This document shows, one piece after another, positions 12,423 through 28,537 of a stretch of 64,000 nt of DNA (within the stretch, counting starts at the first letter, position 1; each line of letters opens with the position of its first letter). This DNA is from Paraburkholderia ginsengiterrae (lineage in GTDB: Bacteria; Pseudomonadota; Gammaproteobacteria; Burkholderiales; Burkholderiaceae): positions 62,001-126,000 of the forward strand of contig NZ_LXKA01000055.1 in NCBI RefSeq assembly GCF_001645125.1, read 5' to 3'. Under the pieces are notes generated by a model, which saw nothing but the letters and a program-made list of their open reading frames with translations, was not told the DNA's origin and ran no database searches. The position numbers were made by a program, and so were the translations under genes.

Positions 12423-12440
12423 ATCGGACCAAGGTCCTAT
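12423..12440. promoter_or_regulatory. Palindrome related to ATAGGAC-N4-GTCCTAT (site 1)
   Basis: ATCGGAC-CAAG-GTCCTAT: a 7-bp inverted repeat with one mismatch and a 4-base spacer, in the gap between the small membrane protein and gltS, 171 bp before the gltS start. The same pattern recurs at 24278, 24791 and 27488. The form resembles binding sites of NarL/FixJ-type response regulators, such as the DosR box. Confidence 0.55.
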
Positions 12441-12610
12441 TGCTTGTGCCAGGCCGCGTGACAAAATCGACCCAGGTCTATCGCCTGGCGTTGCGCCCTC
12501 GTCAGGTGCCGACTTTGTCACTCGTGACACCCGCGCATAGCAGATTGCGATTGACGGCAGAGTCGCTGCGTCCTGCCTAGTGCATTTTCCGGTGACCGGA
12601 GAAGAATATC

Positions 12611-13813
12611 GTGAACCTCGACACGCTGGAAACGCTGACGGCCGCATGCCTCGTGCTGCTGCTCGGGCGGCAAATACTGGCCCGAGCGCGAATTCTGCGC
12701 ACCTACAGCATTCCGGAACCAGTCGTTGGGGGACTGCTCGTCGCGTTGCTGATCTTCGCGCTGCGCAGCCTCTCGCACATCGAGGTGCGCTTTGACACCG
12801 CCCTTCAAACGCCGCTGATGTTCGCCTTCTTTGCCACTATCGGTCTGAACGCTGATCTGGCGGCGCTGAAATCCGGCGGGCGTGCAATGATCGTCTTTCT
12901 CGGCGTCGTGGTCGGCTTGCTTGTCATGCAGGACGCGCTCGGTATCGTCCTCGCCTGGGCATTGGGGCAAGAGCGCATTCTCGGTTTGCTCGGAGCGTCG
13001 GTGACGCTCTCGGGCGGCCATGGCACAGGCGCCGCGTGGGCCAAGGTGTTCGCCGAACGTCACGGTCTCGCGGCGGCGACGGAGATCGCCATTGCTTGCG
13101 CCACCTTCGGCCTGATACTCGGTGGCTTGATCGGCGGCCCGGTCGCGCGTTTCCTGATTACGCACTATCGTCTGGTCCCCAGCCAGCAATCCGGCGACGA
13201 CGCAAGCGCCGCCGGTTTCGAGCAGCCCAAGGCGGTTCGCCCGGTCACGGCGGACGCCGTCATCGAAACCATCGCGTTGATTGCGGTTTGCCTCGCCGTC
13301 GGCTCGGTGCTCGCGTCCTGGTCGAACGGCACGGCGATCGAGTTGCCCGCCTTCGTGTGGGTGCTGTTCGTAGGTGTCGTGTTGCGCAATGTGCTCGCCA
13401 TACGCGGCTGGTACGCGGTTTCCGAACTCGCCGTGTCGATGCTGGGCAACGTCAGCCTCAGTCTCTTTCTCGCGATGGCGCTGATGAGCCTGCGCTTATG
13501 GGACCTGGCCTCGCTTGCGCTGCCCCTGCTCGCGATCCTGGCCATACAGTCGATCGCGATGGCTGCCTATGCGATGTTCGTGACCTTTCGCGCCATGGGC
13601 CGCAACTATGACGCGGCGGTCCTGGCCGCCGGGCATTGCGGTTTCGGCCTCGGCGCCACGCCGACCGCAATCGCCAACATGCAAGCCATCACCGAGCGGT
13701 TTGGCCCGTCCCATCTGGCATTTCTGGTCGTGCCGATGGTAGGCGCGTTCTTCATCGATATCGCTAACGCGATCGTCATCAAACTGTTCCTGCTGCTGCC
13801 GATTTATGGATAG
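12611..13813 (+). CDS. gltS: Sodium/glutamate symporter GltS
   Basis: 400 aa, starting at GTG 12611 with GGAGAAG upstream. N-terminus MNLDTLETLTAACLVLLLGR, the IPEPVVGGL motif, the gas-rich SGGHGTGAAWAKVF segment and a second inverted-repeat counterpart near GHCGFGLGATPTAIANM are the hallmarks of the ESS/GltS family. It has ten or more membrane segments and normal family length. It imports glutamate with Na+ at the inner membrane. Convergent with pqiC, 36 bp apart. Confidence 0.92.
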   Translation: MNLDTLETLTAACLVLLLGRQILARARILRTYSIPEPVVGGLLVALLIFALRSLSHIEVRFDTALQTPLMFAFFATIGLNADLAALKSGGRAMIVFLGVVVGLLVMQDALGIVLAWALGQERILGLLGASVTLSGGHGTGAAWAKVFAERHGLAAATEIAIACATFGLILGGLIGGPVARFLITHYRLVPSQQSGDDASAAGFEQPKAVRPVTADAVIETIALIAVCLAVGSVLASWSNGTAIELPAFVWVLFVGVVLRNVLAIRGWYAVSELAVSMLGNVSLSLFLAMALMSLRLWDLASLALPLLAILAIQSIAMAAYAMFVTFRAMGRNYDAAVLAAGHCGFGLGATPTAIANMQAITERFGPSHLAFLVVPMVGAFFIDIANAIVIKLFLLLPIYG

Positions 13814-22027: not shown

Positions 22028-23314
22028 TTACTGCGACGCGCCGCTGGCGGCGCCAGGCGGCATCGGATGTGCGCCCTCGCTCAGTTGCGGGGCCGATGCG
22101 CCGCCCTTCTCGACGATCGTCGTGCCGCCGGTCTGCGTCGAGGCGACCGTGCCGGCGATCTTGAGCGGCACATCGGGCACGACCCGGATCGCGCCGTCCA
22201 CGACGATGCGCTCGCCCGCCTTCAAACCGTCGGTGATGAACCAGTTATCGCCGTTCCAGTCACCGACCTCGACCACGCGCTGATGAGCCTTCGACTGATC
22301 GTCGACGACCCACACGAAGTGGCTCTTCGCGCCCTGCAGCACCGCGCGCTGCGGCACGAGGACCGCGTTCGGCCGCATGGCGCCCTCCACCCGCGCGCGC
22401 ACGAACTGCCCCGGCCGCAACGTGCCCTTCGGGTTCGCGAGCACGGCCCGTACGAGGAAGGTCCCCGTGTCGGTGTTGAACGCCGGGTTAGCGAAGCTGA
22501 TGGTGCCGTGCTGCGGAAATTGTGTGCCGTCGGCAAGCTCGACTACCACGACGAACTCGCTGTGCGGCGGAAAGAGCAACTTGCCGGCCGAAATCTGGTC
22601 CTGAAAGTGGAGCATTTCGTTTTCGGAAATGCTGAAGTTCACCCAGATCGGATCGAGCTGATAGACATAGGTGAGGAGACCGGACGAATTTGCGATCAGA
22701 TAGCTGCCGTCCTGCTGGCGCGCATAGCTCGCAAGGCCGTTCAGCGGCGATTTGATCGTCGTGTAGCCAAGGTTGAGCTCCGCCGTCTGGACCTGCCCTT
22801 GCGCGGAAATCACCGCGGCTTGCGCCTGCTTCTCGTTGCCGATCGCGTCGTCGAGATCCTTCTGGCTCAATGCTTGCTGCGCGGCGAGCGGCTTGACCCG
22901 GCCGAGGTTCTGCTGCGCGACCGTGAGCCGCGCCTGCTCCGCTGCGAGCTGGCCGCGCGCCGTCTGCAGCGCGGCCTGGAACGGCTTCGGGTCCATCAGG
23001 AACATCGTCTGGCCGGTCTTCACCTCGTCGCCTTCGGCATACGTGCGCCGGTCGAGAAAGCCGTCCACGCGCGCGCGAATCTCGACCTCGCGCGAACTCT
23101 GCGTCTGCGCGGTGAATTCGAGGTCGACCGGTGTGTCGTGTGCGACGACCGTCATCACCGTGACCTCCGGCGCGCCGAGCGCCGGCGGCCCCGACGCCTT
23201 CTTGCAGCCGGCAAGGAGCATCAGTGCCGCGGCGACGAGGACTAGTGGCAGGCGGTTTCGACGCGCCGCAATCCCGGGTAACGGGCGATGGGTGATCAAG
23301 AACGGGCCGCTCAT
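22028..23314 (-). CDS. RND periplasmic adaptor (membrane fusion protein)
   Basis: 428 aa from ATG 23314 behind a strong GGAGG site. Lipoprotein-type N-terminus (LVAAALMLLAGC, acylated Cys). The biotinyl-lipoyl half motifs EIRARVDGFLDRRTYAEGD and LNLGYTTIKSPLNGL flank an alpha-hairpin (about 115-185, ARGQLAAEQARLTVAQQNL). Beta-barrel and membrane-proximal domains follow (RPGQFVRARVEG). It joins the pump to the outer-membrane duct. First gene of the six-gene operon; its promoter should be in 23315-23578. Confidence 0.93.
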   Translation of the reverse strand: MSGPFLITHRPLPGIAARRNRLPLVLVAAALMLLAGCKKASGPPALGAPEVTVMTVVAHDTPVDLEFTAQTQSSREVEIRARVDGFLDRRTYAEGDEVKTGQTMFLMDPKPFQAALQTARGQLAAEQARLTVAQQNLGRVKPLAAQQALSQKDLDDAIGNEKQAQAAVISAQGQVQTAELNLGYTTIKSPLNGLASYARQQDGSYLIANSSGLLTYVYQLDPIWVNFSISENEMLHFQDQISAGKLLFPPHSEFVVVVELADGTQFPQHGTISFANPAFNTDTGTFLVRAVLANPKGTLRPGQFVRARVEGAMRPNAVLVPQRAVLQGAKSHFVWVVDDQSKAHQRVVEVGDWNGDNWFITDGLKAGERIVVDGAIRVVPDVPLKIAGTVASTQTGGTTIVEKGGASAPQLSEGAHPMPPGAASGASQ

Positions 23315-23578: not shown

Positions 23579-24181
23579 TCACGACGGTGCAAATTCCCTG
23601 ATCTTGGTGATCTTGTTTCCTGCCAGCCCCAATCCCGCCATCAGCCCCTTCTGGTCGAAGATGAACGCGTAAATTTCGGAACTCAGCGTCGTGGTGTTCA
23701 GGTTCTTCGCCGCACCCTGGTCCGCAATCACGATCGTCGGCGCAACACCCACGCTGAAACCCGAACTCGTTTTCAGATCGTTCAGCTCATGATCGGTCAT
23801 GAAAAACATCGCATACGCGTACGTTTGCACGCCCGCCTGCAACCCGAATGTGCCCGAAGTCGTCGCATACGAGCCGGTAGCCTTGCCGTTTTCGTACAGA
23901 ATGCCCGCGCCGTGTGCAGCTCCTCCGATGAATCCCGCCCTGATGACTTGCGGAAATACCAGGATACCCTTCGCCTGCTGGCCCAGTTCCTGCGCATGCG
24001 GCGTGCCCGCATAGAGAGACGCCAGCGCCGCCTTGCAATCCGCATCGAGCGTCGGATCGGCTTGTGCCACTGTCTGTGTCGGTCCACCCGAATCCATCAT
24101 GGCCGACTGCTGAGTGGCGCCACAGGCTGCGAGTATGGCGAGCAGTGCAAGCATTGCCAGGTTGCGAACGTGATGGATCAT
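23579..24181 (-). CDS. SYLF-domain lipoprotein (YSC84-like lipid-binding)
   Basis: 200 aa from ATG 24181, which has GGGAG eight bases upstream; ATG 24202 is a weaker alternative. Lipoprotein signal ending at ILAAC. The SYLF domain covers about 60-200, with the KGILVFPQVIRAGFIGGAAHG opening, GSYATTSGTFGLQAGVQTY and a Gly/Ala-rich close (GLMAGLGLAGNKITKI). SYLF domains bind phosphoinositides in eukaryotes and are exported lipoproteins in proteobacteria. A palindrome of the shared type lies 97 bp upstream of this start. Confidence 0.85.
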   Translation of the reverse strand: MIHHVRNLAMLALLAILAACGATQQSAMMDSGGPTQTVAQADPTLDADCKAALASLYAGTPHAQELGQQAKGILVFPQVIRAGFIGGAAHGAGILYENGKATGSYATTSGTFGLQAGVQTYAYAMFFMTDHELNDLKTSSGFSVGVAPTIVIADQGAAKNLNTTTLSSEIYAFIFDQKGLMAGLGLAGNKITKIREFAPS

Positions 24182-24277
24182 GATGCCGACTCCCGTTGCC
24201 ATGTCAGATAAATAGGACCTCGTATGGACGCCGCGGCCCCTCGTGGTGAAGTCTGCTCACCGTTCAGTGTAAAAACA

Positions 24278-24295
24278 ATGAGACTTTGGTCCGAT
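24278..24295. promoter_or_regulatory. Palindrome related to ATAGGAC-N4-GTCCTAT (site 2)
   Basis: ATGAGAC-TTTG-GTCCGAT, a degenerate copy of the shared 18-bp element. It lies 76-97 bp upstream of the two possible SYLF start codons, a promoter-proximal position. The core GAC-TTTG-GTCC matches site 3 exactly. Confidence 0.5.
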
Positions 24296-24322
24296 ATCCC
24301 GACGCCCATTCCTTCTTTCCGC

Positions 24323-24712
24323 TCACGGCGACGGCGCGATCCCGAGCGCGGCCTGCACTGTCCTGATCAGGAGCGAATCGTCAAAGGGTTTGCACAGGTA
24401 CCCGAACGCCCCCGATGCGAGCGCCTGTGAACGCACAGCTACGTCGTCGTGAGCGGTGATCACGATGACGGGTATGCCACTGCCTTTCAGGCGCTGCTGC
24501 ACATCCAGTCCATTCAGTCCCGGCATCTGGATGTCGAGGATCACGCAGTCCGGCCGGTATGACGGCATCGATGAAAGCGTGTCCAGAAACGCGTCGCCGC
24601 TCAGGTACGTGTCCGCACCGATCCCGGCGGATCGCAGCAGACGCCTGATCGCCCGGCCCACCGATTCGTCGTCGTCGACAATGGCCACGAATGGATCTGC
24701 ATTACCCATCAT
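24323..24712 (-). CDS. Receiver-only response regulator
   Basis: 129 aa consisting of a single REC domain: acidic pocket IVDDDESVG (about 11-19), phospho-acceptor Asp about 60 in DCVILDIQMPGLNG, Thr in VIVITAHDD and Lys in LCKPFDDSLL. There is no output domain; the product ends at residue 129. It is closest in style to FixJ receivers and lies two genes from the FixJ-type regulator and its kinase. It may act as a phosphate sink or a protein-interaction switch. Site 3 is 79 bp upstream of its start. Confidence 0.88.
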   Translation of the reverse strand: MMGNADPFVAIVDDDESVGRAIRRLLRSAGIGADTYLSGDAFLDTLSSMPSYRPDCVILDIQMPGLNGLDVQQRLKGSGIPVIVITAHDDVAVRSQALASGAFGYLCKPFDDSLLIRTVQAALGIAPSP

Positions 24713-24773
24713 GAGAAGTCCGGACGCAGCAGTTACCCGTGCAACTGCAATCCTGCCAATTCAGGCTACCCGG

Positions 24774-24987
24774 CCCGGCGCAAAACGGGTATAGGACTTT
24801 GGTCCAACAGAAACGAGAACTGACGCTCGGGCCCGGCACGGTGGTGCACGACTATCTCGCCACGTGACGGGCGCGGATGGCGAACTCAAGGAAAAAGTGC
24901 AGCCCCGTCACGGAGGCAGCGACGACGTTCTGGATTTTCGCGGGCCGCATGACGCCCGGCGCAAAACGGGTATGGGAATTTGCTCCG
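24774..24987. repeat. Imperfect 33-bp direct repeat (24774-24806 and 24955-24987)
   Basis: Both copies begin CCCGGCGCAAAACGGGTAT and match at 29 of 33 bases. The four differences fall in the palindromic half: GGACTTTGGTCC in the first copy, GGAATTTGCTCC in the second. Flanks are unrelated, so the duplication is restricted to the regulatory segment. Confidence 0.7.
24791..24808. promoter_or_regulatory. Palindrome related to ATAGGAC-N4-GTCCTAT (site 3)
   Basis: ATAGGAC-TTTG-GTCCAAC. The left arm is perfect and the right arm differs at two positions. It is 79 bp upstream of the receiver-only regulator gene, nearly the same distance as site 2 from the SYLF gene. Confidence 0.6.
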
Positions 24988-25021
24988 GCGTGGGCGAGCA
25001 AAGCCGCAATGCGCGGGGCGC

Positions 25022-25660
25022 TCAGTGCCGCACGTGCGGCGCGTATGCAGGCCGGCCGGCCCGCACCTTATCGGCGAAATGGATCAGGTCGGCGAGCGAG
25101 CGCGCCTTCATTTTCTTCATCACGCGTGCGCGGTGGATCTTGATCGTCTTCTCGGCGACACCGAGATCGAACGCGACCTGCTTGTTCAGGCGCCCCGTGA
25201 CGACCAGCGCCATCACTTCGCGCTCGCGCGGCGTCAGACTCGCGAGGCGCAGCTCGATCTCTACCAGCTCCTGCCGCTCTTCGTACATCTGCATCGCGCA
25301 CACGAGGGCGCGCTCCACCACGTCGAGCAATACGGTGTCGCTGATCGGTTTGGTCAAGAAATCAGTTGCGCCCGCCTTCATCGCGTCGACGGTGGTGGCG
25401 ATATCGCCATGTCCGGTCAGGAACACGATCGGCAGGCTCATATTCAGCTCGCGCTGCAACTCGAGGCCGCTCAGGTCCGGCAACTGCAGGTCCAGCACGA
25501 GACAGGCGGGTCCGCTCGACAGGTCCATGTCGGCGAGGAAAGAGCGTGCGGATTCGAAAACTTCGGTCTGATACCCGGCGCAGCGCAGCAGGCGCCCGAG
25601 GGCGCGGCGAACGCTGTCGTCGTCATCGACCACAAAAACGCGGGACGGGGAATGAGTCAT
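25022..25660 (-). CDS. FixJ/NarL-family response regulator
   Basis: 212 aa from ATG 25660. An upstream GTG at 25672 overlaps the kinase stop as GTGA and would add four residues. The receiver domain (about 7-120) has VFVVDDDDS, phospho-acceptor Asp57 in CLVLDLQLPDLSG and Lys in FLTKPI. The LuxR-type helix-turn-helix (about 140-200) has LTPREREVMALVVTGRLNKQ and VAEKTIKIHRARVMKKM. It pairs with the kinase gene ending 8 bp upstream. Among the genes here it is the best candidate to bind the repeated palindromes, since NarL/FixJ regulators bind such sites. Confidence 0.93.
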   Translation of the reverse strand: MTHSPSRVFVVDDDDSVRRALGRLLRCAGYQTEVFESARSFLADMDLSSGPACLVLDLQLPDLSGLELQRELNMSLPIVFLTGHGDIATTVDAMKAGATDFLTKPISDTVLLDVVERALVCAMQMYEERQELVEIELRLASLTPREREVMALVVTGRLNKQVAFDLGVAEKTIKIHRARVMKKMKARSLADLIHFADKVRAGRPAYAPHVRH

Positions 25661-25668
25661 GGCTGTGG

Positions 25669-26985
25669 TCACATGCGATTCGGTCCCGCTGCGTTCCCGG
25701 CCGGCAACGACACATAGAAGGAGGCGCCCCCCTCGGCATTGTTCTCCGCCCAGATGCGTCCACCGTGTGCGCCGACGATACTGCGACTGATCGACAGCCC
25801 GAGCCCAAGACCGTGCGGCTTCGAAGTGAAAAATGGCTGAAAGATCTTGTCCATCTGATCCACCGTCAGCCCACGGCCGTGGTCGCGCACGCAAAGGCAC
25901 ACTGCGCCGCCGGTGTCGACGCGCGCCTGCACTGCCACGAGACGGTCCGCGGCGGTGCGATCCTGCACGGCGTCGAGGGCGTTGAGCATCAGGTTGAGCA
26001 GCACTTGCTGCAATTGCACCTTGTCGCCACGCACGGAGGGCAAACCGGGTGCAACTTGGATCGTTATGCGGACTCCGCGCACGATCGCGTCGCTGTGCAC
26101 GAGTGAGGCCACGTCGTGCACGACGCCGCTAACGTCGACCCACTGCCATTCGATGTCGCACTTCCTGACGAGCGCCCGCATCTTCTGGATGATTTCTCCG
26201 GCCCGGCGGTTGTCCGCGACGATGTCCTTCAATGTCTCGCGCACTTCACGCAGGTTGATCGGGTCCGCTTCCATGAAACGCTGGGCAGCCTGCGAGTTGG
26301 ACAGGATCGCGGTGAGCGGCTGATTCAGCTCGTGCGCGAGCGATCCGGCAAGCTCCCCCAGCGCGGACACGCGCGCCAGATGTGCAAGTTCCTGCCGGTT
26401 GCGGTGCAATTCGTCGCGCTCGCTGCGCTCCACGACCACGGCAAGCAAGATCGGCACGCCATCAACACGACATTGGCTCGTCGTCACCTCTGCAGGAAAT
26501 TCAGCGCCGTCGTGGCAACGCGCGACAACGGTACGCAGCACGGAGGTGGCAAACGGCGGCTTCGGCGCAATCACGTGCACGCCATGCGTGGACCATGCCG
26601 GGATCAGGAGACTTGCGCAGGCGCCGTCCAATTCGTCGCTGCGATAGCCGAATAGCTCTCTCCCCCGCTCGTTGATGAACGTGATCCTACCGGCCTTGCT
26701 GATGCCGAGAATCGCAATCGGCACGACTTCCAGCACGTCACGCATTGGCACGCCGGCGAGGAGCGTTCCACCGACCACGGCGCGGTGCTTGTGTGCATGA
26801 CTACGCAACGCGAAGGCTGTCGACGCTTCGAGACCGAGATGCCCGCCGAAGCGACGAACGGATCGGGAAAAGACGGTCAGGGCGCGTCCCGCGCGAGGTC
26901 GCGGATGCCTGGGCACACGGCACCACACGATCATGGACGCGATGGCCGTCGGCACAACTCCACAATCTGGCACGCCGTTGTGCAT
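25669..26985 (-). CDS. PAS-domain sensor histidine kinase (FixL-like, HPK4 type)
   Basis: 438 aa from ATG 26985, chosen for its GGGAGG site eight bases upstream; a longer TTG start (27036) and a shorter ATG (26745) also exist. Residues 1-80 are basic with no recognised domain or clear membrane helix. A PAS domain follows (about 81-195: VVPIAILGISKAGRITFINERG). The H-box is LGELAGSLAHELNQPL with His about 218. The ATPase boxes are LMLNALDAVQ, DHGRGL, FQPFFTSKPHGLGLGLSI. A soluble sensor is likely. The FixL-like PAS could bind haem or flavin, but the ligand residue is not identifiable by eye. Confidence 0.9.
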   Translation of the reverse strand: MHNGVPDCGVVPTAIASMIVWCRVPRHPRPRAGRALTVFSRSVRRFGGHLGLEASTAFALRSHAHKHRAVVGGTLLAGVPMRDVLEVVPIAILGISKAGRITFINERGRELFGYRSDELDGACASLLIPAWSTHGVHVIAPKPPFATSVLRTVVARCHDGAEFPAEVTTSQCRVDGVPILLAVVVERSERDELHRNRQELAHLARVSALGELAGSLAHELNQPLTAILSNSQAAQRFMEADPINLREVRETLKDIVADNRRAGEIIQKMRALVRKCDIEWQWVDVSGVVHDVASLVHSDAIVRGVRITIQVAPGLPSVRGDKVQLQQVLLNLMLNALDAVQDRTAADRLVAVQARVDTGGAVCLCVRDHGRGLTVDQMDKIFQPFFTSKPHGLGLGLSISRSIVGAHGGRIWAENNAEGGASFYVSLPAGNAAGPNRM

Positions 26986-27799
26986 AGCGAATGCCTCCCT
27001 GCCCGCAAGCGCGCCAGGCGAATCCCGACCATTCAACGAGGTGCGATTGCGGCAGTTACGTTTGAAACAGGCTCAATGACGACCTTCACGGGAATCGTTC
27101 ACTCGCGTCATTTGTTAATTTTCCGTTTCTACTGCTGGTGAGCGAAATAATTGATCGAGACCATCCGCCTAAAGGCAACGGTGCGCGTTGCGTACGTCCT
27201 CACCGATGCGCTGCCAGGAAAGAATTGCTACTTGATCTTAGTCAGTTTTTACCGATCTGGAGAATTTATTTCGACGTCGTTTACGCCAATGGCCCGGACG
27301 ATTAAATCGGGCGATTGGTTTATATTCGCGTTTAACTAAGATTCGCGCCATGAACGACGATTGGGCCACTGGATTTCAAATGTCTTTCTCCCAGTCGCGT
27401 ATTCCGAAATAACATTCGCGACGGATGTCGTTAGATTTCTTTCATAGCCTTCAACGCCTGAGAATAGCGCAAGGGTGGCGCACCGGTATAGGACCAAAGT
27501 CCTATTGAACGCGTACTGCGTTCGATATGCGTCTTCGCTGCGCTCGTAGCCTGACCGATCCAGCTGCATGCTGGACGGTTGCACTCGGCAGTCCGACCTT
27601 CTATTCCTAGTCGGCAAACTACCAGATCGAACTGCCGGCAGGAATCATCGCGGACGTCGCGGCTGCACCTATGGCCGAATAGATGTTGGACCGCTCAATC
27701 GCGCGGGCGGCGGAGCGTCACGCTGATCGTCGGTTCGTCGGCCTTACGATACTCGCAGCGGGTCATCGAGGCGAATGCAACAGTGGGGGCGAAGGGTGG
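26986..27799. other. Long intergenic region with a perfect palindrome
   Basis: About 810 bp without a supported gene. 27090-27430 is markedly AT-richer than the flanks. The best copy of the shared palindrome is at 27488-27505. Short frames in this stretch, at 27151-27339 (plus) and 27336-27617 (minus), lack ribosome sites and family features. A 23-codon peptide-like stretch at about 27610-27681 is preceded in frame by a stop. Confidence 0.45.
27488..27505. promoter_or_regulatory. Perfect palindrome ATAGGAC-CAAA-GTCCTAT (site 4)
   Basis: Both 7-bp arms are perfect, making this the consensus copy. It has no obvious downstream gene at the 76-80 bp distance seen for sites 2 and 3; the nearest starts are the kinase (about 500 bp left) and nothing supported to the right. 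Confidence 0.65.
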
Positions 27800-28084
27800 T
27801 CATTTGCAACCGTGACTGTTCGCGGTCCGGTAACAGGTGGTTCCGCCCGGGCCGTGAACCACGCCTTTGCCGTTCATCGTCTTCGCTTCGCCGCCCCGGT
27901 TGGTCTGAGTCGTCCGCACTCCATTCTGGTTCGTCTGGGACGACCAGGCCGTACCCGTGTTCCGGTTATAGCCGCCGGCCGTCTGTCCGTTGCCACAGAC
28001 CGTCTCGCCACGGGCGTTCGTCGCACATTCTGCAAACGCGTTCGCGGACAGCATTACGCATGCCAGTACTATCAGAGTCTTCAT
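27800..28084 (-). CDS. Small secreted cysteine-containing protein, function unknown
   Basis: 94 aa from ATG 28084, with GGGGGAA upstream; ATG 28090 is an alternative. Sec signal peptide MKTLIVLACV to ANAFA. The mature chain is rich in Asn, Gly and Thr and has four cysteines (20, 30, 84, 93) placed as two pairs at its ends, which could form disulfides in the periplasm. The middle has repeated N-x-T/Q-N turns (GYNRNTGTAW, QTNQNGVRTTQTN). No family is recognised. It is separated from other genes on both sides by long gaps. Confidence 0.65.
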   Translation of the reverse strand: MKTLIVLACVMLSANAFAECATNARGETVCGNGQTAGGYNRNTGTAWSSQTNQNGVRTTQTNRGGEAKTMNGKGVVHGPGGTTCYRTANSHGCK

Positions 28085-28537
28085 GAACATTTCCCCCCGA
28101 GGGCTGCGGCAGCCGAGGTAATCTCCGCGTCAATTGAATCTTGGCCCAAGGTGCTGGCCAGCATCGCAAACTGGCTGCATTGGATATTAGTTTAGGTCTT
28201 ACGGGACCGTTTTCCTCCCTCAAAGTAGCGTTCACTCCGGCGAATTCGGGGCGAACGGCAGGCGATGCGATCGAAGCCTCCACGCGCAGGCGCTTTGCGG
28301 GTTCGTCAGCGGATTTGATCTCTTAATTTGGTGTCAAAGGAACACTTATATGCACAGACTATTGCACTGAAGTTGTTCCCGACTTCACGTCGAACCCATC
28401 TTTGAAGCCGAGCGTGTAGGAACAAGATCATGCAAACCAACGTCACCTGCTGCATTGCATAACATGCACCATCGGGACTGTCGCTACACTATGCCGACAA
28501 TGTGCCCGACACCACCGGTTACCTTAAGGAGACGCTC
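28085..28537. other. Intergenic region before the amidase gene
   Basis: About 450 bp. A 7-bp inverted repeat TTGTTCC/GGAACAA occurs at 28373-28379 and 28419-28425, with a long spacer. I see no gene, and no clear terminator for the small secreted protein. Confidence 0.4.

Follow-up and report, generated by a model that had tools for sequence, protein, structure and literature searches.

A palindromic promoter box as the probable operator of a FixJ-type response regulator in Paraburkholderia ginsengiterrae and beyond its genus

A 64,000-nucleotide stretch of Paraburkholderia ginsengiterrae DNA (contig NZ_LXKA01000055.1, positions 62,001 to 126,000; hereafter the window), which belongs to an 8.53-Mb genome in 393 contigs, carries copies of a palindromic box with the consensus wATTGGACCWWGGTCCAATw. 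Comparison within and outside the genus suggests, with a probability that we put at roughly 0.85, that this box is the operator of the FixJ/NarL-class response regulator encoded at 25022..25660 on the minus strand, which would use it to activate sigma-70 promoters. The box, its position relative to genes, its co-occurrence with the regulator, the promoter spacing and the recurrence outside the genus were computed, and they suggest a mechanism in which a signal would lead the adjacent PAS histidine kinase (25669..27036, minus strand) to phosphorylate the regulator, a regulator dimer would bind the box, and the bound dimer would activate the promoter from a class II position. The most constant targets would be a single-domain receiver protein (24323..24712, minus strand) and a SYLF/Ysc84 lipoprotein (23579..24181, minus strand, alternative start 24202); in P. 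ginsengiterrae itself, the sodium/glutamate symporter gene gltS (12611..13813, plus strand) and a transcript that would run leftwards to the kinase gene are also predicted targets.

The locus at 24-27 kb reads leftwards in the order kinase, regulator, receiver-only protein, SYLF lipoprotein, with an RND efflux adaptor next. The regulator contains Pfam Response_reg (8e-24) followed by GerE (2e-20), in agreement with the NarL/FixJ class given to it in a preliminary description of this DNA. The kinase, whose start is uncertain (26985 is also possible), contains one PAS domain by Pfam (PAS_9), plus HisKA and HATPase_c only. The other three proteins match Response_reg (receiver-only protein), Ysc84 (lipoprotein) and Glt_symporter (GltS).

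That description had listed four copies of ATAGGAC-N4-GTCCTAT, all outside genes, and a decayed fifth. A scan of the window with the pattern ATAGGACNNNNGTCCTAT, allowing up to three mismatches, indeed returns four places, but only the one at 27488 is exact; those at 12423, 24791 and 24278 have one, two and three mismatches, respectively. All four are flanked and none is overlapped by genes, as called by our own gene finder. Shuffled windows (n=100), which served as the chance baseline, give an expectation of 0.64 matches, and four matches are reached in 1 of the 100. A weight matrix was trained on 154 exact sites of other genomes, none from the window or its genome; the training set includes some relatives' loci that were later scored, and most receiver-gene boxes are imperfect and hence lie outside it. 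This matrix gives the 16-bp cores scores of 28.3 (27489), 26.5 (24792), 23.3 (12424) and 12.9 (24279), while the best score per block-shuffled window (n=60) has a mean of 2.2 and a maximum of 12.6. The sites at 27488, 24791 and 12423 are strong, and the site at 24278 is weak.

Each of these sites has a candidate gene. The perfect palindrome (27488..27505, minus strand) lies in the intergenic stretch before the kinase gene. The core of the receiver-gene box (24791..24808, minus strand) is 79 bp from the start codon, as previously stated. The weaker SYLF box (24278..24295, minus strand), in which one half-site is decayed, has its core at the previously stated 76 bp if the gene starts at 24202, but at 97 bp from the start at 24181 that the gene finder favours; a SYLF box also lies 97 bp from the start in L115, a relative whose regulator is 80% identical. 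The gltS box (12423..12440, plus strand) does precede that gene, with 171 bp from core to start, and in locus L105 an exact box lies 132 bp upstream of a gltS homolog. The fifth copy (24972..24989) is real as a relic, but it was rejected as a functional site and excluded, since its palindrome is decayed and scores -11. It belongs to a second, direct but incomplete copy of the receiver-gene promoter (24954-24989, between the regulator and receiver genes) that consists of 20 identical bases and the decayed box; the sequence GCCCGGCGCAAAACGGGTAT precedes or overlaps both the 24791 box and the relic.

The P. ginsengiterrae genome has 4 copies of the exact box TWGGACYNNRGTCCWA and none of the control; looser forms are not enriched there, neither the 12-bp core GGACCAAAGTCC with one mismatch (19 places versus 32 for the control) nor the extended box when two mismatches are allowed (56 per strand versus 100). 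Across 98 genomes of the genus, the exact box is found 148 times and the reversed control pattern 19 times. It is present in 46 of the 98, often (among the matches listed) in several copies that are partly clustered on one contig. A homolog of the regulator (E <=1e-30) is found in all 98, and the best homologs fall into two groups on either side of a gap between E values of 2.4e-65 and 3.2e-55. The box is present in 46 of the 66 genomes with a close homolog and in 0 of the 32 without one (Fisher p 2.3e-12, a value that ignores kinship among species); the control pattern occurs 12 times in the first group and 7 times in the second. These counts support the small regulon of the neighbouring FixJ-type system that had been proposed. 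They also bear on the idea that no regulator is involved at all and that the sites are palindromes arisen by chance or copies of a repeat, mobile or structural. Such an idea can draw on the one shuffle that equalled the window count, the duplicate at 24972 and the unenriched short cores, but we regard it as very improbable in view of the 148 matches versus 19, the fixed promoter spacing before unrelated genes both inside and outside the genus, and the little information carried by columns beyond the box and the -10 element (see below).

An equal frequency of the box inside and outside coding regions had been named as a sign that no regulon exists; instead, all 78 distinct exact genus sites examined (in the window, L035, L036, L045-L074 and L105-L164) are intergenic, in DNA of which only 17.7% is non-coding. 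When boxes scoring at least 6 are sought 20-320 bp before genes in 40 regulator neighbourhoods (L105-L144), they are found upstream of 37 of 37 receiver-only genes (32 of these at 79-89 bp), 22 of 26 SYLF genes and 6 of 6 small secreted genes, but upstream of 0 of 38 regulator genes and 1 of 41 kinase genes; among other genes, further targets included, the count is 89 of 480. Within this range, then, the kinase-regulator pair is seldom a target and the receiver-only gene is one in every case. The site at 27488 is unusual: its -10 match points leftwards to the kinase gene, the leader between them would exceed 400 bases, and close kinase boxes are rare in relatives. In L138, L140, L141 and L142, a box with one mismatch is found about 1 kb before the kinase gene, and the far-upstream boxes of L138, L140 and L141 are comparable with the 27488 site. 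The leader itself (27040-27450) is AT-rich by eye and contains no called gene; it could hold a small RNA.

Insight into how the box might work comes from its alignment with promoter elements in 85 oriented site-gene pairs. The trinucleotide TTG, resembling a -35 element, directly abuts the 16-bp core in 53 of the 85. At column 39, the pattern nAnnnT is present in 47 pairs, compared with a mean of 2.4 and a maximum of 7 at other columns, and the more stringent TAnnnT is present in 22, compared with 0.16 on average elsewhere. This spacing persists when one pair per gene family is retained: TAnnnT is at column 39 in 11 of 38 pairs from Paraburkholderia, Caballeronia and near kin (mean elsewhere 0.15) and in 15 of 36 pairs from other organisms (mean elsewhere 0.34), the latter being a group made by hand that holds some other Burkholderiales. 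TTG after the core is more frequent among the near kin (12 of 38) than among the other organisms (5 of 36). Aligned columns that lie outside the box and the -10 element hold little information.

In the window, the predicted -10 elements are TAGCCT for the receiver-only gene (24763..24768, minus strand) and CAGACT for the SYLF gene (24250..24255, minus strand), both at the conserved spacing of column 39, the second with a -35-like TTGTTT directly after the core. The other two are one base nearer, at column 38: CAAAAT for gltS (12462-12467, plus strand), with TTGCTT directly after the box, and TATTCT for the 27488 box (27461-27466, minus strand), which is present on the leftward, kinase side only. 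If the -10 element is taken as ending at -7, the box is centred near -43, the position of a class II activator. Relative to the predicted transcription start, the arrangement is that of class II sigma-70 promoters, with an operator near -40 that touches the -35 region and a -10 at fixed spacing, and it is this arrangement that argues for activation. A regulator that binds the same box could instead repress, its contact with the -35 region serving to block RNA polymerase, and a box that touches the -35 could indeed occlude it. We consider repression unlikely, since a centre near -43 together with imperfect -35 and -10 elements is better suited to activator-dependent promoters, and StyR, the nearest solved homolog, activates from about -40 according to the consulted part of its description (PMC2442086).

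The assignment of the box to this particular regulator is also consistent with the regulator's recognition helix, EKTIKxHRARVM. Arginine 179 is found in 62 of 62 close homologs and lysine 171 in 59 of 62; the 47 in-kin regulators in this set were chosen by identity rather than by the box, and four of them (L138, L140-L142) have no adjacent receiver-gene box. The paralogs compared (14, of which L301 and L304 were not counted as evidence) mostly have isoleucine at 171, with Q, H, N or R at 179, and the two groups differ at positions 171, 178 and 179; the signature largely separates close homologs from paralogs. On a tree, the two labels change 3 times, compared with a mean of 33.8 for shuffled labels and 0 of 500 shuffles as low; the tree, with poorly resolved deep branches, does not show the close homologs as one clade, and a single origin of these may still apply. 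One small subgroup (L138, L140 and L141, with regulators L100, L102 and L104) is without an adjacent receiver gene. In addition, the regulator homologs with arginine at 171 (L343, L345 and L355) have deviating best matches nearby (TTGTACC in L345 and L355), which might represent a variant box for a variant helix.

Outside the genus, the palindrome alone (ATTGGACCWWGGTCCAAT) matches at least 120 stretches of named genomes, of which 80 loci, each of at most 8 kb, were examined. Among the matches listed, those from organisms other than Paraburkholderia and Caballeronia come from records, most of them metagenome bins, with the labels Deltaproteobacteria, Desulfobacterales, Acidobacteria, Verrucomicrobium, Bacillota, Coatesbacteria and others, and 91 of 93 sites in these named-record loci are intergenic. 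Also among the matches listed, 25 of the 80 loci contain a homolog of the regulator (>=43% over >=170 residues), and 15 of these 25 lie outside Paraburkholderia kin. In 12 of the 15 listed, the box is 24-176 bp past the 3' end of the regulator gene, often with a receiver gene just beyond (L190, L213 and L223 are the exceptions); the isolates among the 15 are an Achromobacter sp. (L207) and a Verrucomicrobium sp. (L213, in which the box is 578 bp from the regulator). In 30 non-kin genomes picked because they hold the box, the exact box occurs 81 times and the control 5 times, 30 of the 81 reflecting the selection itself. In a phylum-wide sample of 299 genomes, 23 have a regulator homolog at E 1e-50 or better, and few of their readable loci score (L338, 10.4; L362, 9.3; L341, 8.8; L343, 6.6).

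These loci speak to whether the box might belong to another DNA-binding protein that co-occurs with the locus, the neighbouring regulator being a bystander. In line with that idea, 55 of the 80 box-bearing loci among the matches listed lack a regulator homolog in the stretch of at most 8 kb that was read. We nevertheless think it quite unlikely: the regulator recurs beside the box at the 15 listed loci outside the genus, the recurrent kinase-regulator-receiver locus encodes no other DNA-binding protein, and the regulator's helix departs from those of paralogs at the three positions given above.

Several observations weigh against the regulator at 25022-25660 as the activator that binds the box. 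The co-occurrence counts take no account of species kinship, and many of the sites are orthologous rather than independent. No exact box is present in 20 of the 66 genomes with a close homolog, though in 8 of the 9 of these that were fetched as 20-kb stretches the receiver gene has a degenerate one. In a sample of 250 genomes from the order, the box occurs in 7, the P. ginsengiterrae genome included, and is no commoner than the control. The intergenic count covers about half of the 148 genus sites and uses our own gene calls; in the promoter alignment, a site between divergent genes counts as two pairs; and the two other exact sites of the genome (C35, C167) have no match to the conserved -10. 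The helix signature is not exclusive, since a box scoring at least 6 accompanies 25 of 29 regulators with both K171 and R179 but also 6 of 28 without (57 of 59 parsed), and regulators L100, L102 and L104 have the full signature with no good box in about 3.6 kb. Finally, most of the distant records are metagenome bins, which may be mislabelled.

Clustering of 158 site-gene pairs indicates which families the box precedes. The largest clusters are SYLF proteins (18), receiver-domain proteins (13, at least one of them a full regulator) and a family whose members are about 800-850 residues long and match nothing in Pfam (13). Glycine-zipper-like, Phenol_MetA_deg and Bestrophin-like proteins form clusters of 9 each, followed by RND adaptors (6), a small secreted protein (6), proteins that weakly match CusF (5), AI-2E transporters (5) and patatin (3); small clusters and single genes include cytochrome bd, gltS, DUF3313, phosphoketolase and a Na/H exchanger. 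The Phenol_MetA_deg transporter gene is not counted as a target, as the -10 is correctly placed in 0 of 9 cases. The SYLF protein BPSL1445 is described as lipid-binding in the consulted part of a review (PMC10787603). From its members, we infer that the regulon may be an envelope or respiratory stress response, in which the receiver-only protein could be a phosphate sink or a second output.

Taken together, these results make it somewhat probable that the PAS kinase, the FixJ-type regulator, the receiver-only protein and their own operator form a portable module, which would have kept a nearly unchanged box of 18-20 bp and box-to--10 spacing across several phyla (Pseudomonadota, Acidobacteriota, Desulfobacterota-type, Verrucomicrobiota and others). 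Such a module would control envelope proteins (SYLF, glycine-zipper-like, Bestrophin-like and RND adaptor) and make its own receiver protein, which would serve as a built-in feedback or phosphorelay branch.

The RND adaptor gene (22028..23314), the leftward neighbour of the SYLF gene, has no well-scoring box in the window, yet its relatives do (6 pairs), which suggests that species have gained or lost it as a target. For the small secreted gene at 27800-28090, a box was considered and rejected: relatives of this gene have one at 81-88 bp, but here the highest score is 5.8, for a match at 28134 that lies about 43 bp from the start. A member of the family of about 800-850 residues, which the box often precedes, is encoded at L106:11759-14308 and matches neither Pfam nor NCBIfam.

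If the assignment is correct, an operator, a promoter layout and a core regulon would be attached together to an unnamed branch of FixJ-type regulators, and the regulon could be read from sequence alone in unculturable organisms. It would become testable why the most constant target of the regulator is a receiver domain with no output, and whether phosphate is drained or redirected by it. SYLF, DUF3313 and Bestrophin-like proteins and the Pfam-less family of about 800-850 residues would gain a shared regulatory context.

The solved structures nearest to the regulator include StyR, FixJ, NarL and DevR. StyR (StySR) and TodT are FixJ-type activators of aromatic catabolism, and StyR is the nearest solved homolog of all (1yio, E 4.3e-52). 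The StyR/TodT box, ATAAACCATGGTTTAT, has the same 16-bp dyad as the box here, with ACC-N2-GGT, but its outer half-site letters are ATAA rather than TTGG. The StyR/TodT target is a catabolic operon, whereas the annotated targets here are envelope, transport and signalling genes, and the kinase also differs in having one PAS domain in Pfam.

FixLJ supplies the best NCBIfam models, FixJ for the regulator and FixL for the kinase, with scores that fall below the curated cut-offs (201.3 versus 255 for the FixJ equivalog; 218.9 versus 850 for FixL). The haem ligand of FixL is the histidine of DPHIIG. Haem sensing of the FixL type was rejected for the kinase here because, although its PAS domain resembles that of FixL, a phenylalanine aligns at the ligand position (alignment to 2cmn).

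The preliminary description had likened the box to that of actinobacterial DosR. The DosR box, TTSGGGACTWWAGTCCCSAA, does share the core GGACYWWRGTCC, which is present in the box here, and DosR/DevR has a NarL-type DNA-binding domain in common with the regulator (3c3w, E 1.8e-15; also 1zlj and 1zlk). The kinases of DosR systems are oxygen/NO-sensing GAF haem kinases; Pfam gives no GAF domain for the kinase here. Among the predicted targets are cytochrome bd (L160, and L179, which clusters with it), phosphoketolase (L194) and a DUF2383 protein whose rubrerythrin match is below threshold (L180); the 30 neighbouring-gene representatives scanned with Pfam include neither universal stress proteins nor nitroreductases. 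The likeness of the box is confined to its core; the sensor does not make this a DosR system, and the annotated targets do not clearly point to one. The consensus of Streptomyces OsdR, AGGGCCGATCGGCCCT, is unlike the box here, according to the consulted part of its description (PMC5069765). The low-oxygen (lxa) locus of Burkholderia cenocepacia was also considered as an explanation and set aside; the word 'motif' is absent from the consulted parts of three papers (PMC9733578, PMC3759415 and PMC6127331). A search with the strings GGACCAAAGTCC and TTGGACC plus GGTCCAA and with keywords, judged mostly by title and with most subscription papers outside its range, found no published account of the box among the papers listed. 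An operator of a two-component regulator is, as a kind of thing, ordinary; the recurrence outside the genus, the promoter geometry and the receiver-only gene as the most constant target go beyond the descriptions found.

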